Positions 58,120-63,798 of a DNA stretch of 64,000 nucleotides are shown piece by piece. A model generated the notes under the pieces. The model saw nothing but the letters and a program-made list of their open reading frames with translations, had not been told where the DNA came from and did no database searches. This DNA is from Deefgea piscis (lineage in GTDB: Bacteria; Pseudomonadota; Gammaproteobacteria; Burkholderiales; Chitinibacteraceae). Position numbers and translations under genes: made by a program. Each line of letters starts with the position of its first letter. Within the stretch, counting starts at the first letter, position 1. Location: the NCBI RefSeq assembly GCF_013284055.1, contig NZ_CP054143.1:1984001-2048000 (forward strand). The letters are read 5' to 3'.

Positions 58120-59316
58120 TTACCAATTGGTCTCGCGTTCGGGGCTGGCTGAGGTTTGGTGGATGCTTAAGTCGGCGCCGTTAAATTCTTCTTCGTCAGT
58201 CAGACGAATGCCGACGGTTTTTTTCAATACGCCATACACCAGATAGCCACCAGCAAAAGCAATCACCACGCCGAGTAGGGTGCCGACCACTTGCGCTAGG
58301 ATACTCACCCCACCTATACCGCCCAAGTAGGTGCTGCCAAAAATTCCTGCAGCAATACCCCCCCATGCACCGCAAATACCATGCAGTGGCCAGACGCCAA
58401 GTACGTCGTCGATTTTCCAGCGGTTTTGCGTCAGGGTAAATAGCCATACAAACAGCCCACCAGCAATGCCGCCAACAACCAGCGCGCCCAAGGGATGCAT
58501 GATGTCGGAGCCAGCACACACTGCGACTAAGCCAGCGAGTGGGCCGTTATGAATAAAGCCGGGGTCGTTTTTGCCGACGACGGTGGCAACTAATGTACCG
58601 CCCACCATCGCCATGAGTGAATTCATGGCCACTAGGCCGGAAATACCTGCGATTTTTTGCGCGCTCATCACGTTAAAGCCAAACCAGCCGACGATCAAAA
58701 TCCAGGCGCCTAAGGCTAAAAATGGGATGCTAGATGGTGGATGCGCGGCGATACGACCTTCTTTACTGTAGCGCCCACGGCGCGCGCCCAGATGCAGTAC
58801 CGCAGCTAGGCCAATCCAACCGCCGACCGCATGCACCACCACTGAGCCGGCAAAGTCATGAAAGGGCGCGCCAAACCAAGCTTTAAATAGATCTTGCATG
58901 CCGAAATTATTATTCCACACCATGCCTTCAAAAAAGGGATAGATAAAGCCGACCAGTAAAAAAGTCGCCGCCGATTGTGGATGAAACTTGGCGCGCTCAG
59001 CAATACCGCCAGAAACAATGGCTGGAATGGCGGCAGCAAAAGTGAGTAAAAAGAAAAACTTAACCAGCTCAAAACCATGGTTTTGTAGCATATCGCTGGC
59101 GGGGCCAAAAAAATGCACGCCGTAGGCGATACCGTAGCCAATAAAAAAATAAGCGATGGCGGATACGGCAAAGTCGGTCAAAATTTTAACTAAGGCATTG
59201 ACCTGATTTTTTTTGCGTACCGTGCCTAATTCTAAAAAAGCAAAGCCGGCATGCATCGCCAAAATCATAATGGCGCCTAATAAAATAAATAAAACGTCGA
59301 CACTACTCGCACTCAT
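58120..59316 (-). CDS. amtB: Ammonium transporter
   Basis: 398 residues and about eleven membrane helices. Conserved Amt features are the N-terminal FLELGTVRKKNQVNALVKILTDFAVSAIAYFFIGYG, the two pore histidines in AGSVVVHAVGGW and WPLHGICGAWGG, and the phenylalanine-gate region EGMVWNNNFGMQDLF. No signal peptide is evident. The gene has a GGGAG ribosome site and a sigma-54 promoter upstream, so expression under nitrogen limitation is expected. glnK, which usually accompanies amtB, is not adjacent. The C-terminal tail (TDEEEFNGADLSIHQ) has the conserved E-E-F-N-G-A-D-L-S motif that contacts PII. Confidence 0.95.
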   Translation of the reverse strand: MSASSVDVLFILLGAIMILAMHAGFAFLELGTVRKKNQVNALVKILTDFAVSAIAYFFIGYGIAYGVHFFGPASDMLQNHGFELVKFFFLLTFAAAIPAIVSGGIAERAKFHPQSAATFLLVGFIYPFFEGMVWNNNFGMQDLFKAWFGAPFHDFAGSVVVHAVGGWIGLAAVLHLGARRGRYSKEGRIAAHPPSSIPFLALGAWILIVGWFGFNVMSAQKIAGISGLVAMNSLMAMVGGTLVATVVGKNDPGFIHNGPLAGLVAVCAGSDIMHPLGALVVGGIAGGLFVWLFTLTQNRWKIDDVLGVWPLHGICGAWGGIAAGIFGSTYLGGIGGVSILAQVVGTLLGVVIAFAGGYLVYGVLKKTVGIRLTDEEEFNGADLSIHQTSASPERETNW

Positions 59317-59487: not shown

Positions 59488-60273
59488 TTATTTTGGTGCG
59501 CTTTTTTGCCGTGCATGGCGAAAATAGCGGGTATTGGCATAAAAGTCGGCGTCTTGCTCGGGCCACCATTGTGGAATGCCCAAATACGGCAGTGGCGGCA
59601 GTTGGCGTGGGGTTTGTAATGCGTGTTGCTCGATTTGTTCGGCAATTCGGCGATCAAGTTCTTGGCGTTGCAGGATTAAATCAAGCGCAAAAAAATCCGT
59701 ATCTACTTGAATCGGCCAGCATTTACCGGTTAGGCCAATAAAAGGTTGTAATAGGTTTTCCAGCGTGGCGTGGCCAAAAACAAAGGCGCTGATTTCTTGG
59801 CCCCATGCTTTGGCCTCGTCAACAAATAAGGCTTGCCATTGATGCGCGACCATCAGCTCAAGTAGCGCCGGGCGGCTATACGGCAAAATTAAGCCGCATT
59901 CATCAAACAAGGTGGCCGCATCACGCACTGGCCCACGGATTTTGCTGTCGGGATCGGCTTGCATCGCTTTAAAGTGCAGCGCATTAAGTGCCACTTTGCT
60001 TTTGGGGTAGGCTTGCCAAATGGTGGCGTTAAACGTGTCATGCCAGTTTAAGCGGGTAGCGACACGGCCTTTTTGGTAGATTTCAAGTTCGTAATATTCA
60101 GTGATGCTATCGGGATCGACAAACTGAATGTTTGCGCCGCCTTGGGTTTGGATACGCTCACTCACCGTTAACCAATCGGCGTGCAATGGGGCTTGGGAAA
60201 AGCGCTTTAGATAGGGTAAAACCGGTGCAAAGGCAGGGGTGCTCGAGAAAAAATCAAGGGGCCATGAGGTCAT
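59488..60273 (-). CDS. DUF3025 domain protein
   Basis: 261 residues from the ATG at 60273. The open frame begins three codons earlier at a TTG. The sequence includes the DUF3025 patterns YYELEIYQKGRVATRLNWHDTFNATIWQAYPKSKVALNALHF and AFVFGHATLENLLQPFIGLTGKCWPI. This family is common in Beta- and Gammaproteobacteria and its function is not established. No signal peptide or membrane segment. It begins about 57 bp after the tpx stop, past a hairpin terminator, so it may be expressed with or separately from tpx. Confidence 0.85.
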   Translation of the reverse strand: MTSWPLDFFSSTPAFAPVLPYLKRFSQAPLHADWLTVSERIQTQGGANIQFVDPDSITEYYELEIYQKGRVATRLNWHDTFNATIWQAYPKSKVALNALHFKAMQADPDSKIRGPVRDAATLFDECGLILPYSRPALLELMVAHQWQALFVDEAKAWGQEISAFVFGHATLENLLQPFIGLTGKCWPIQVDTDFFALDLILQRQELDRRIAEQIEQHALQTPRQLPPLPYLGIPQWWPEQDADFYANTRYFRHARQKSAPK

Positions 60274-60281
60274 AAAATTCA

Positions 60282-60320
60282 AAAATTAAACAGGGTTAAA
60301 CAGTGCGAAGTTTAACCCTG
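60282..60320 (-). terminator. Rho-independent terminator of tpx
   Basis: Eleven-bp stem CAGGGTTAAAC / GTTTAACCCTG (60291-60301 / 60310-60320) followed on the minus strand by TTTAATTTTT. Confidence 0.85.
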
Positions 60321-60974: not shown

Positions 60975-61011
60975 AAACGCCAAGATGGATCGTTGCTCCA
61001 ATCTTGGCGTT
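60975..61011 (-). terminator. Terminator of the cysteine-free tpx paralogue
   Basis: On the minus strand AACGCCAAGAT pairs with ATCTTGGCGTT around a loop of about 14 bases, followed by TTTTTG. Confidence 0.85.
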
Positions 61012-61023
61012 TAGCTTTGGGTG

Positions 61024-61575
61024 TTATTCGATACTGAGTACTTCGACTTCCGTTACGGCGGCAGTAGCGGCAGGCGGGTCGAGTAAATCTAGCGCCGATG
61101 TATAGTTGGGCTCGGCATTGAGATCACTCACCAGCTCGGAATACAAAATGGTATCGTCAACATCGAGCGCAAATAAGGCGGTGGTCATCAGGCCAGACAG
61201 CGGAACATCGGTAATCATCACGCCGTAGTCTTTATGAAAGTCACGCCCACGCAAGGTCGACATTAATTGGATTTTGCGAAAACCTTCAGAATCAACAATC
61301 CGTGATAGTGCATAGGGGGTATCGACCGAAACCGTCATAATCACGGCGTTTTTGAGTTCATACCCTATGGTTTCGAGTTTTCTGGCAATGGTTAAACCAA
61401 TCGCCGCATCTAAGCTAGGCACTACGGCAATGAGTTTTCTTTGTCCCCAAAATTTGGACAGCGGCACATCTTGTAATTGAATGTCGACCAGCATAAAGCT
61501 ATGTGCCGTTTCACCTGCACGAGGAAAACGGCCACCAATACTGACAGGGGTGCTATTGAGCATAACGGTCGACAT
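61024..61575 (-). CDS. Tpx-like protein lacking all catalytic residues
   Basis: 183 residues. It aligns without gaps to the neighbouring Tpx over the first ~150 residues (STVMLNSTPVSIGGRFPRAGETA, STLRGRDFHKDYGVMITDVPLSGL, ILYSELVSDLNAEPNYTSAL), but the residues equal to Thr57, Cys60, Cys94 and Arg132 are Ala, Gly, Val and Thr. There is no cysteine anywhere. It therefore cannot act as a thiol peroxidase. An acidic, alanine-rich tail of about 20 residues is added. The preserved fold and clean open frame with its own terminator argue against a pseudogene. A binding or regulatory role is possible but not shown. Confidence 0.85.
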   Translation of the reverse strand: MSTVMLNSTPVSIGGRFPRAGETAHSFMLVDIQLQDVPLSKFWGQRKLIAVVPSLDAAIGLTIARKLETIGYELKNAVIMTVSVDTPYALSRIVDSEGFRKIQLMSTLRGRDFHKDYGVMITDVPLSGLMTTALFALDVDDTILYSELVSDLNAEPNYTSALDLLDPPAATAAVTEVEVLSIE

Positions 61576-61635: not shown

Positions 61636-62763
61636 TTAGTAGAACCAGAGCAGGGAATAACCAGTTGAATGTAAATCGCCCAAGTCTAATTGTAAGAATG
61701 CAGGAATTTCTTCGTTGGCTTCGATGCGATCTTGTTGGCGCTCGTTTTGCAGCAAATATTGTTTGGCGGTGAATACTTTGCGAACGATGACGCGTTCATT
61801 GTCATCAGTCAGCGTGAGCTCTAGCTTGGGCAGTGCTTGGGCAAAGGGCGCTAGATTACGCAAGGTGGCATTCAGTTGAATTAACTGCGGATTATTGGGA
61901 ATAAAACTGAGTTCTGAATATTCCGAGCGCAGCAATGGTGATTTTTGTGGCAGCGGCATGGCGCAATCGAGTTTGGCGCACAGTGCTAGGTATTTGGGGC
62001 GTAAAGCAGGAAAGTCTTGGCTGAGCTCAAGCCGGAATTGATACAACAATTGCAGTACCAAGATCATCACTGCCAATAGACTGGCTAGCGCCCACCAACC
62101 GGTGTGTTGCGCGGTTTTTTTGTGTGGTACAAATAAATCGTCATCGCTGAGAATCGGCTGATATTCAGCATTGCTATCAATTTCAACGTGGTTTTGGTTT
62201 GGCGCGCTCATCACCGGCTGGCTGGTGTCTTCAGTCGCTGCAGCAGCGGCCAAAGCCAGTTCAATTTCCATTGCCAGTGTCGGGTCTTGTGCTGCGCTTG
62301 GTGAAGCGGCCGTTTCAACTTGGCTTTGAGGTTCGCTTTCAGTCTCCAATGCCGGCTCAACATTGCTGCTGTTGTTGCGGGCGAGGACTTCAAATTGGAG
62401 TAAATCGATTTCTTGAGCAATATCATCGGGTATATTGCTGTCACCTTTATTGATTAAAGGCTCTGCGTCTATACCTTGTTGATCAGCTTGCGTGTCCAGC
62501 GGTTCAAAGACGGTTGCGATGGTCTCTGTTTGATTGAGTTGCTGCTCAGGTTCCACTGGGGGCGCTTGGGCAGGGATACTGCTGATTTCGGCATCGTCGG
62601 ACTGGCTTGGCCCATTGCTGGCAATGGGCGCTTGCATAAAATCAGGCGCATGAAACACAAATGCACAGCGACCACAGCGCACTTTGCCTTGATGTGCGCT
62701 GAGCTGCTGATCGGTCACCCGAAAGGCGGTGCTGCAATTGGGGCAGCAGGTAATTTGGTTCAT
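61636..62763 (-). CDS. Zinc-ribbon protein of the DUF3426 family
   Basis: 375 residues. An N-terminal zinc ribbon (MJ0042-type) has Cys7/Cys10 and Cys30/Cys33 (CCPNCSTAF... VRCGRCAFVF). A long acidic, Gln/Ala-rich low-complexity linker spans about residues 45-215. One membrane helix (WWALASLLAVMILVLQLLY) follows, then the periplasmic DUF3426 domain ending with GYSLLWFY. The usual partner prmA is next to it here (16-bp gap), which matches the conserved order prmA - DUF3426 in betaproteobacteria. The function is unknown. Confidence 0.9.
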   Translation of the reverse strand: MNQITCCPNCSTAFRVTDQQLSAHQGKVRCGRCAFVFHAPDFMQAPIASNGPSQSDDAEISSIPAQAPPVEPEQQLNQTETIATVFEPLDTQADQQGIDAEPLINKGDSNIPDDIAQEIDLLQFEVLARNNSSNVEPALETESEPQSQVETAASPSAAQDPTLAMEIELALAAAAATEDTSQPVMSAPNQNHVEIDSNAEYQPILSDDDLFVPHKKTAQHTGWWALASLLAVMILVLQLLYQFRLELSQDFPALRPKYLALCAKLDCAMPLPQKSPLLRSEYSELSFIPNNPQLIQLNATLRNLAPFAQALPKLELTLTDDNERVIVRKVFTAKQYLLQNERQQDRIEANEEIPAFLQLDLGDLHSTGYSLLWFY

Positions 62764-62779
62764 GCGCTGACTTCACTCA

Positions 62780-63673
62780 TTAAGCGGATTTGCGGATACC
62801 GGAGAGGCAAACCCAACCTTCGTGCTCGGCGGCTGGCGAAAAATCAAACCATTGGCTGTAAATGGCGATAATTTCATGCGCTTGTTCGGCCAAAATACCC
62901 GATAGCACAATCTTGCCACCGATACGGCAACGGCTGGCCAGTAATGGTGCTAATGCTTTGAGTGGATTGGTCAGGATATTGGCAACGACCACGTCGTAGC
63001 TTTTGCTCGGCGCAGCATCAGGCAAATAAAATTGGGCGACAACGTTGTTTTGCTCGGCATTTTGGCGGCTGGCAATCATCGCTTGGGCGTCGATATCCAC
63101 GCCGTCGGTTTCGCCTGCGCCGAGTTTGAGCGCTGAAATCGCCAAAATCCCACTGCCGCAACCGTAATCGAGGACGTTTTCACCGCCAGCAAGGTTGGAA
63201 TCTAGCCATTGCAAACACAGGCGAGTTGTTGGGTGGCTACCGGTACCAAAGGCTAAACCGGGGTCCAGCTGGATGCTTACTGCCGCAGGATCGGGGCATT
63301 CGTGCCATGTTGGGGTAATCCATAGGCGCGGAGAGATTGGGATTGGATCAAATTGCGATTGGGTTAAGCGCACCCAGTCTTGATCGGCTACGTTGATGAT
63401 CTCGAAACTTGGCGCTGGCAGTTGCAGGATTTGCGCTGCGTGCTCAACAATGGTGGCGACATCCATCTCAACATCAAACAGCGCCACCACAATGCTGGTT
63501 TCCCACAATTGATCGACCGGCTCGCCCGGTTCGCCAAAAATAGGCTTTTCAGCATCGGTGCCTGCAGCTGCGTCTTCAATCGACACGGAAAGCGCGCCCA
63601 AATCAAATAAGGTGTCCGAATAGCCTTCTGCTTGTGCAGAATCGGTTGTTAGGCGGAGTTCTTGCCATGCCAT
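62780..63673 (-). CDS. prmA: Ribosomal protein L11 methyltransferase
   Basis: 297 residues from the ATG at 63673, which has AAGGAAC upstream; the frame extends 16 codons further without support. The N-terminal PrmA substrate-recognition domain (MAWQELRLTTDSAQAEGYSDTLFDLGALSVSIEDA) and the SAM motif VLDYGCGSGILAISALKLGA are intact, with PGLAFGTGSHPTTRLCLQWL before it. The enzyme trimethylates lysines and the N-terminus of L11. Upstream, accB/accC often occur in related genomes; here 125 bp separate it from a LysE-family gene. Confidence 0.95.
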   Translation of the reverse strand: MAWQELRLTTDSAQAEGYSDTLFDLGALSVSIEDAAAGTDAEKPIFGEPGEPVDQLWETSIVVALFDVEMDVATIVEHAAQILQLPAPSFEIINVADQDWVRLTQSQFDPIPISPRLWITPTWHECPDPAAVSIQLDPGLAFGTGSHPTTRLCLQWLDSNLAGGENVLDYGCGSGILAISALKLGAGETDGVDIDAQAMIASRQNAEQNNVVAQFYLPDAAPSKSYDVVVANILTNPLKALAPLLASRCRIGGKIVLSGILAEQAHEIIAIYSQWFDFSPAAEHEGWVCLSGIRKSA

Positions 63674-63798
63674 GATGCTGTTCCTAAGTTCTGTAGGGAC
63701 GTATTTTGCCACGAACCGCACCCTATCGACGAAAAAGCTTTTTGTGCTTGTTTACTTTGCGTCGCAAAAATGTTTAGTTTCAGGAACTAAGGGCATGA

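Follow-up and report, generated by a model that had tools for sequence, protein, structure and literature searches.

The stretch of Deefgea piscis DNA analysed in this study (64,000 nt of contig NZ_CP054143.1, referred to below as the window) contains, on its reverse strand, a gene encoding a cysteine-free relative of the thiol peroxidases (Tpx), which we designated pse. It is located between a gene for a zinc-ribbon/DUF3426 protein and an intact tpx gene (Table 1). The prmA-like gene found further upstream presumably encodes the ribosomal protein L11 methyltransferase; an internal ATG at position 63673 is a likelier start than that of the listed ORF. An ordinary member of the ammonium transporter family is encoded at 58120-59316 (minus strand; 296.5 bits with the Pfam model Ammonium_transp).

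Table 1. Coordinates of the genes and features of the pse locus (numbering of the window)
Feature	Position	Strand	Basis or remark
pse: cysteine-free pseudo-Tpx, 183 aa	61024..61575	-	ATG start
Peroxidatic-loop remnant, residues 53-60, PSLDAAIG, Cys60 replaced by Gly	61396..61419	-	counted from the start at 61575
Segment with the highest conservation, residues 105-131; positions of the Tpx dimer contacts R109 and P125; motif TLRGRDFHKDYGVMITD	61183..61263	-	
Hairpin and subsequent T run in the pse-tpx interval, probably an intrinsic terminator	60975..61012	-	RNA fold
tpx: intact atypical 2-Cys thiol peroxidase, second Tpx type (T2), 166 aa	60330..60830	-	
Zinc-ribbon/DUF3426 protein, conserved neighbour upstream of pse	61636..62763	-	family match and synteny
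prmA-like gene, conserved neighbour upstream of pse	62780..63721 (ORF as listed)	-	synteny
DUF3025 protein, frequent neighbour downstream	59488..60282	-	family match and synteny

The original prediction described the reading frame, ribosome site and terminator of pse as clean, and inspection of the sequence agrees with this: the frame opens with ATG, a Shine-Dalgarno-like AGGAG is located 5′ of it, and the stop codon is followed by the hairpin and T run. Folding of the segment 60960-61023 gave -23.5 kcal/mol (z -4.48; equalled by 0 of 200 shuffled sequences), although the hairpin was absent from the output of a simple terminator scan of the window. A promoter scan returned two sites, i.e. fewer than the 3.1 obtained with shuffled sequences. 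Apart from pse itself, a search of the genome of origin of the window yielded tpx and a single weak match (E 0.14).

Relation of the pse protein to thiol peroxidases

The pse protein shares 67 of 165 residues (41%) with the neighbouring Tpx in a BLASTP alignment with 0 gaps. It exceeds the thresholds of the Pfam Redoxin model (39.9 bits, cut-off 26.6) and of the NCBIfam equivalog NF001808 "thiol peroxidase" (145.9 bits, cut-off 123); together with its best Tpx match in the PDB (E 1.2e-39), the latter score indicates Tpx-subfamily homology over the full domain. Compared with the atypical 2-Cys Tpx of Yersinia (2XPD) and Escherichia coli (3HVV), it has the same fold, length and dimer-contact residues; it differs in the lack of the peroxidatic Cys, resolving Cys, catalytic Thr and catalytic Arg.

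The peroxidatic motif of Tpx is PxxxTxxC. In the pse protein it is not kept and reads PSLDAAIG, with Thr57 replaced by Ala and Cys60 by Gly with respect to the neighbouring Tpx. The resolving Cys94 is replaced by Val, and the active-site Arg132 by Thr. These are the four catalytic changes that the original prediction had listed, and its statement that the protein aligns gap-free to the adjacent Tpx and contains no cysteine (0 Cys in 183 aa) is also correct.

The NCBIfam cut-off was passed by three of four pse proteins tested, and the fourth (L031, entered as a truncated sequence) scored 120.7 bits against the required 123. One protein from each of two groups of more divergent forms described below (families f27 and f51) remained under the cut-off (82.5 and 79.8 bits, respectively). 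The thiol peroxidase model therefore admits proteins without the catalytic residues.

Distribution and conservation of pse

A scan of contigs for relatives of pse, in which the loci were sorted by the residues at the catalytic positions, identified 66 loci: (i) 30 pse genes, assigned to this group by the absence of Cys60, Cys94, Arg132 and stop codons, (ii) 35 active-type Tpx, mostly from betaproteobacterial records, of which 34 have all four catalytic residues, and (iii) one 48-residue fragment. The exception within the second group (L066:539-1033, from a betaproteobacterial MAG) retains the Thr, the peroxidatic Cys and the Arg, with its resolving Cys replaced by Arg. The pse genes originate from Deefgea, Chitinibacter, Chitinilyticum, Chitiniphilus, Chitinolyticbacter, Chitinimonas, Andreprevotia, Amantichitinum, Iodobacter, Formivibrio and MAGs; among the named records, the closest to that of the window are found in four of Deefgea (86-93% protein identity). 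A tpx gene is located downstream of pse in 28 of the 30 loci, and the gene order prmA-DUF3426-pse-tpx, often with DUF3025 next, is present in 26. The order is not found in the remaining four, namely L021 and L030 (no prmA match), L029 (no tpx) and L034 (no such neighbours).

In an order-wide sample, 20 of 300 genomes contained a match of at least 59% identity, all of them in the families designated f1 (that of the window), f21 and f32. Within these three related families pse was found in 50 of 58 genomes (36/43, 10/10 and 4/5, respectively), counted as matches of at least 56% identity, with the catalytic residues checked in the fetched loci only. The single f32 genome lacking pse (G195) is 86% complete. 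Of the 50 pse-bearing genomes, 49 also yielded a tpx gene, which adjoins pse in 48. A distance of 52 kb separates the two genes in Formivibrio citricus, whereas in three f32 loci and in genome G340 they are separated by an operon-like gap of 16-33 nt. The one pse-bearing genome in which tpx was not found (G159) was set aside as evidence for pse without tpx, since it is a fragmented MAG of 680 contigs and its congener G195 has tpx elsewhere.

The seven f1 genomes without pse (genera g6 and g7) all keep tpx, and pse is thus dispensable in some lineages. The interval between DUF3426 and tpx is occupied in three of them by a gcvH-like gene and comprises approximately 180-220 nt in the other four. 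The gcvH-like gene stands at the place of pse in the g6 loci L099, L238 and L239 (Pfam GCV_H match for the L099 copy). A decayed copy of pse was rejected in g6, where the weak matches within the gap are on the opposite strand and lie over the gcvH-like gene; the weak matches in the gap of L104 (g7) are short and scattered.

The residue-level comparison covered 46 pse and 109 active Tpx sequences from the loci, all of them distinct; identical copies and one truncated frame were left out. Position 60 is Gly in 46/46 pse proteins vs Cys in 109/109 active Tpx, and position 132 is Thr in 45 pse proteins and Ser in one vs Arg in all active Tpx. Position 57 is Ala in 38 pse proteins and Ser in six, and Thr is retained in two; none of the 46 has Cys at position 94. 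No cysteine at all is present in 33 of the 46. In the others there are between one and three, located at 77, 79, 106, 131 or 164 and in no case at 60 or 94. The Iodobacter-type proteins (L028, L030, L031, L139), which form a long branch, carry two or three, at 77, 106 and 164, i.e. outside the former active site. The residues that set pse apart from the enzymes and are kept in 96-100% of its sequences cluster at the old pocket: A50, G60, L61, I63, L67, V84, T86, Y88 and T132; the changes from enzyme to pse at these positions include S63I, F67L, A84V, L86T and F88Y.

The mean share of the commonest residue in pse is 0.84 in residues 53-68, 0.92 in residues 83-92 and 0.94 in residues 105-131, and falls to 0.50-0.60 in residues 69-82, 93-104 and 150-165. 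The first two segments are about equally conserved in pse and tpx. The segment 105-131 is more conserved in pse (0.94) than in the neighbouring tpx (0.85) or in all active Tpx (0.76).

The dN/dS values of pse (Nei-Gojobori) range from 0.02 to 0.14 in 19 chosen pairs, without stop codons; several of these pairs have dS above 1, and the seven with a pse dS below 0.6 likewise give 0.02-0.14. For tpx the values are 0.03-0.15 in 18 of the pairs, one pair being saturated. The constraint on pse is weaker than that on tpx in the four closest Deefgea pairs (0.08-0.13 vs 0.03-0.07), and pse evolves at about 1.8 times the rate of tpx in a set of 23 taxa (tree length 4.69 vs 2.55). The orthologues are thus conserved and under purifying selection, with no sign of neutral drift. 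The original prediction that pse encodes a pseudoenzyme is strongly supported by these comparisons, in which the same catalytic losses recur in conserved and selected orthologues.

Phylogenetic origin and divergent relatives

In a tree of 49 sequences pse is sister to active Tpx of family f13 (support 100/95), and a quick version of the analysis with 155 sequences agrees with this. A constraint joining pse with the neighbouring tpx was worse by 74.5 lnL units (p-AU 0.0006, a somewhat generous value, as the groups were named after a first view of the tree), and an origin of pse as a tandem duplicate of the adjacent gene is rejected accordingly. When the active-site columns were removed, the tie to f13 was no longer resolved; the neighbouring-tpx group was still separate (100/99). 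The original prediction had presented pse as a paralogue beside an intact tpx; the latter is indeed adjacent and intact, but pse is no tandem copy of it and is nearer to another Tpx lineage.

The closest active relatives of pse are the f13 Tpx (L089-L091) and Tpx of the Thiobacillus/Sulfuricella type, which share with it the sequence RGRDF(H/Y/F)KDYGVMI and differ from it in keeping the Thr, both Cys and the Arg. All three f13 loci have the order DUF3426-tpx-DUF3025; prmA is present in one, and the other two loci end before it. Given the placement in the trees, it seems that catalysis disappeared from a resident Tpx and that a second Tpx type is at work alongside it. Within the latter group, the Tpx of L162 (genome G111, family f20) is placed inside the Chitinibacteraceae second-type Tpx, which suggests horizontal transfer.

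A more divergent form was identified in family f27. In the alignment it has Ala or Glu at position 57, Gly near 60, Arg at 94 and Pro at 132. It is located at prmA-DUF3426 in all 11 loci read, with no Tpx within 3.5 kb. All 11 genomes carrying it also contain a second Tpx-type match, which has intact catalytic residues in three, is 66-71% identical to the Tpx of the window in four and is known from the genome count in four; in the seven genomes where its place was seen, it lies away from the locus of the divergent form. One further f27 genome (G074) contained only ordinary Tpx among the matches listed. Three forms from family f51 (L218-L220) are still more divergent, with Ser near position 60 and Pro at 132, and neither prmA nor DUF3426 adjoins them within the stretches read. 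An ordinary Tpx was not found in two of the three f51 genomes, G134 (100% complete) and G265 (87%).

The motif T(L/M)RGRDFH is present in 46/46 pse proteins, in 14/14 f27 and f51 forms and in 35/109 active Tpx. The best tree joins pse, f27 and f51 with a support of 54/99.9 and long branches; a grouping of pse with f27 to the exclusion of f51 gave a p-AU of 0.029.

A solved structure from Chromobacterium violaceum, filed as a "probable thiol peroxidase" (3KEB), matches an f27 protein at E 3.9e-51, and this likeness suggests that f27 is the Chromobacterium family. Like pse, 3KEB has no Cys in its aligned residues 5-172 and lacks the catalytic Arg, which is Pro in this protein; it carries the motif STLRGRDFHK, and its nearest relatives among the loci (f27) sit at prmA-DUF3426. 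The predicted structure of pse matches it with Z 25.9 and an rmsd of 1.9 Å over 172 residues. The two proteins are approximately 34% identical, and 3KEB differs in an active-site loop about two residues longer and in a longer chain. A search of the open-licence literature for 3KEB with the species name found no paper.

Possible role of the pse protein

Excerpts of a study of Yersinia Tpx (PMC3288085) describe several residues relevant to the dimer: R110 makes contacts across the subunit interface with G125, P126 and A128, the oxidised form has a D57-R93 pair, the pocket of each subunit is shaped by the β4-α2 loop of its partner, and the partner residues F89′ and L35′ are near a compound docked in this pocket. 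The numbering of pse equals that of Yersinia minus one, and the loop corresponds approximately to residues 83-88. The dimer-contact residues D56, R92, R109 and P125 (contact roles as given in those excerpts) are kept in 46/46 pse proteins. At the positions of the partner residues, Y88 is present in all 46, and position 34 is Leu in 40 and Met in six. This retention of the dimer apparatus, together with the uniform remodelling of the pocket, favours a binding role over decay.

An AlphaFold model of pse (pLDDT 89.8, alignment of 65 sequences) is nearest to the reduced Tpx 2xpd (Z 30.4, rmsd 0.8 Å, 166 residues aligned) and farther from the oxidised 3zrd (Z 24.7, 1.9 Å, 163 residues); the reduced, Tpx-like shape is partly built in, because the alignment contained Tpx sequences. 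An earlier model based on pse sequences alone had a pLDDT of 78.4, with low confidence at residues 112-118.

As its catalytic parts are lost and the protein is nevertheless strongly preserved, pse probably now has a job different from that of a peroxidase. We lean towards the view that it is a functional pseudoenzyme derived from the former Tpx of the locus, a non-catalytic homodimeric binding protein, and that the second Tpx performs the peroxidase work. According to this model, (i) the ancestor of pse would be an earlier Tpx of the prmA-DUF3426-tpx locus, (ii) the peroxidase work would now be done by the second-type Tpx next to it, (iii) the pse protein would retain a Tpx-like homodimeric fold with the shape of the reduced form, (iv) its former peroxide pocket would be a chemically inert site, and (v) its action would consist in binding, the target being a small ligand in the pocket between the subunits or else a protein that docks on the surface made up of residues 83-92 and 105-131. 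Indirect sensing of peroxide, which had also been proposed, finds no support, all peroxide-reactive and peroxide-activating residues being lost from the pse of the window.

The original prediction further considered a heterodimer with Tpx. In this case pse would be a regulatory subunit, whose loop with Val84, Thr86 and Tyr88, together with Leu34, enters the pocket of the active Tpx and alters its substrate range or rate. The adjacency of the two genes in 48 of 50 genomes (with tpx in 49, the exception being the fragmented G159), the operon-like gap in the four cases described above and the identity of D56, R92, R109 and P125 in pse and Tpx are in agreement with such a role. Mixed oligomers of the peroxiredoxin isoforms Tsa1 and Tsa2, mentioned in excerpts of PMC13038412, provide a precedent for the sharing of an oligomer, although these proteins belong to another subfamily and both natural partners are active. 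Against this, pse comes from a different lineage than the adjacent Tpx, and so does its interface segment: DFHKDYGVMITD is present in 46/46 pse proteins and 12/109 active Tpx, and the neighbouring Tpx differs. The two genes are distant in F. citricus and separated by the terminator-like hairpin in the window, the f27 form is unlinked to Tpx (in 11 loci within 3.5 kb, and in the seven genomes where Tpx was seen elsewhere), and no ordinary Tpx was found in the f51 genomes G134 and G265. Covariation of branch rates was calculated for the window and 22 loci (43 branches); 23 of the 29 loci L004-L032 gave matches for all five genes, and one of these, L029, which has no tpx of its own, was dropped. 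The pair pse-tpx gave r 0.24 (p 0.12), i.e. no special signal of coevolution in these 23 taxa, similar to pse-prmA (0.27) and pse-DUF3426 (0.22), with 0.01 for pse-DUF3025; the strongest pair, DUF3426-DUF3025 (r 0.53), has no bearing on pse. The support from the shared interface residues and the adjacency is not specific to a partnership with Tpx, and we consider the heterodimer unlikely.

A role as a stress chaperone (holdase), or another moonlighting function of the peroxiredoxin fold with no need of an active site, is rather improbable. Tpx form dimers and not the large assemblies associated with chaperone activity, and the constraint on pse is concentrated in the old pocket and the dimer segment and not spread over the sequence, which argues against a function of this kind. 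Its precedent is the chaperone action attributed to peroxiredoxins of other subfamilies (PMC13038412, PMC5719442).

Finally, the faster evolution of pse than of tpx on the same branches and its absence from two genera might point to a pseudogene that was inactivated recently and is drifting, or to an artefact of sequencing, but the open frame, the synteny, the uniform replacements in 46 distinct sequences and the low dN/dS refute this explanation and leave it next to no probability.

Among the matches listed in a search of the open-licence literature (titles and abstract openings), there was no natural peroxiredoxin pseudoenzyme; the inactive peroxiredoxin of PMC6617597 is, according to excerpts of that paper, an engineered mutant. 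In the same literature we found no paper on Deefgea or Chitinibacteraceae with these enzymes or on a prmA-accC-tpx neighbourhood, and no report of a natural pseudoenzyme among the matches listed for thiol peroxidase in C. violaceum.

On the basis of these comparisons, pse is a real, conserved and misannotated pseudo-peroxidase with a traceable origin and a probable binding role. It is of interest to specialists in redox biology and pseudoenzymes, and is not a new kind of system. A broader interpretation, which we put forward tentatively, is that in several families, i.e. the Chitinibacteraceae and their relatives and, through one loss or parallel losses, the 3KEB group, a second Tpx took over the peroxidase function of the resident one, which persisted as a binding protein without catalysis. 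These proteins may then constitute a pseudo-peroxiredoxin family filed as active enzymes, whose remodelled pocket and TLRGRDFH surface would serve a new function. If this is true, it would provide a pseudo-peroxiredoxin that has numerous orthologues, a distant relative of solved structure (3KEB) and, within the same genome, an intact enzyme to serve as a control.
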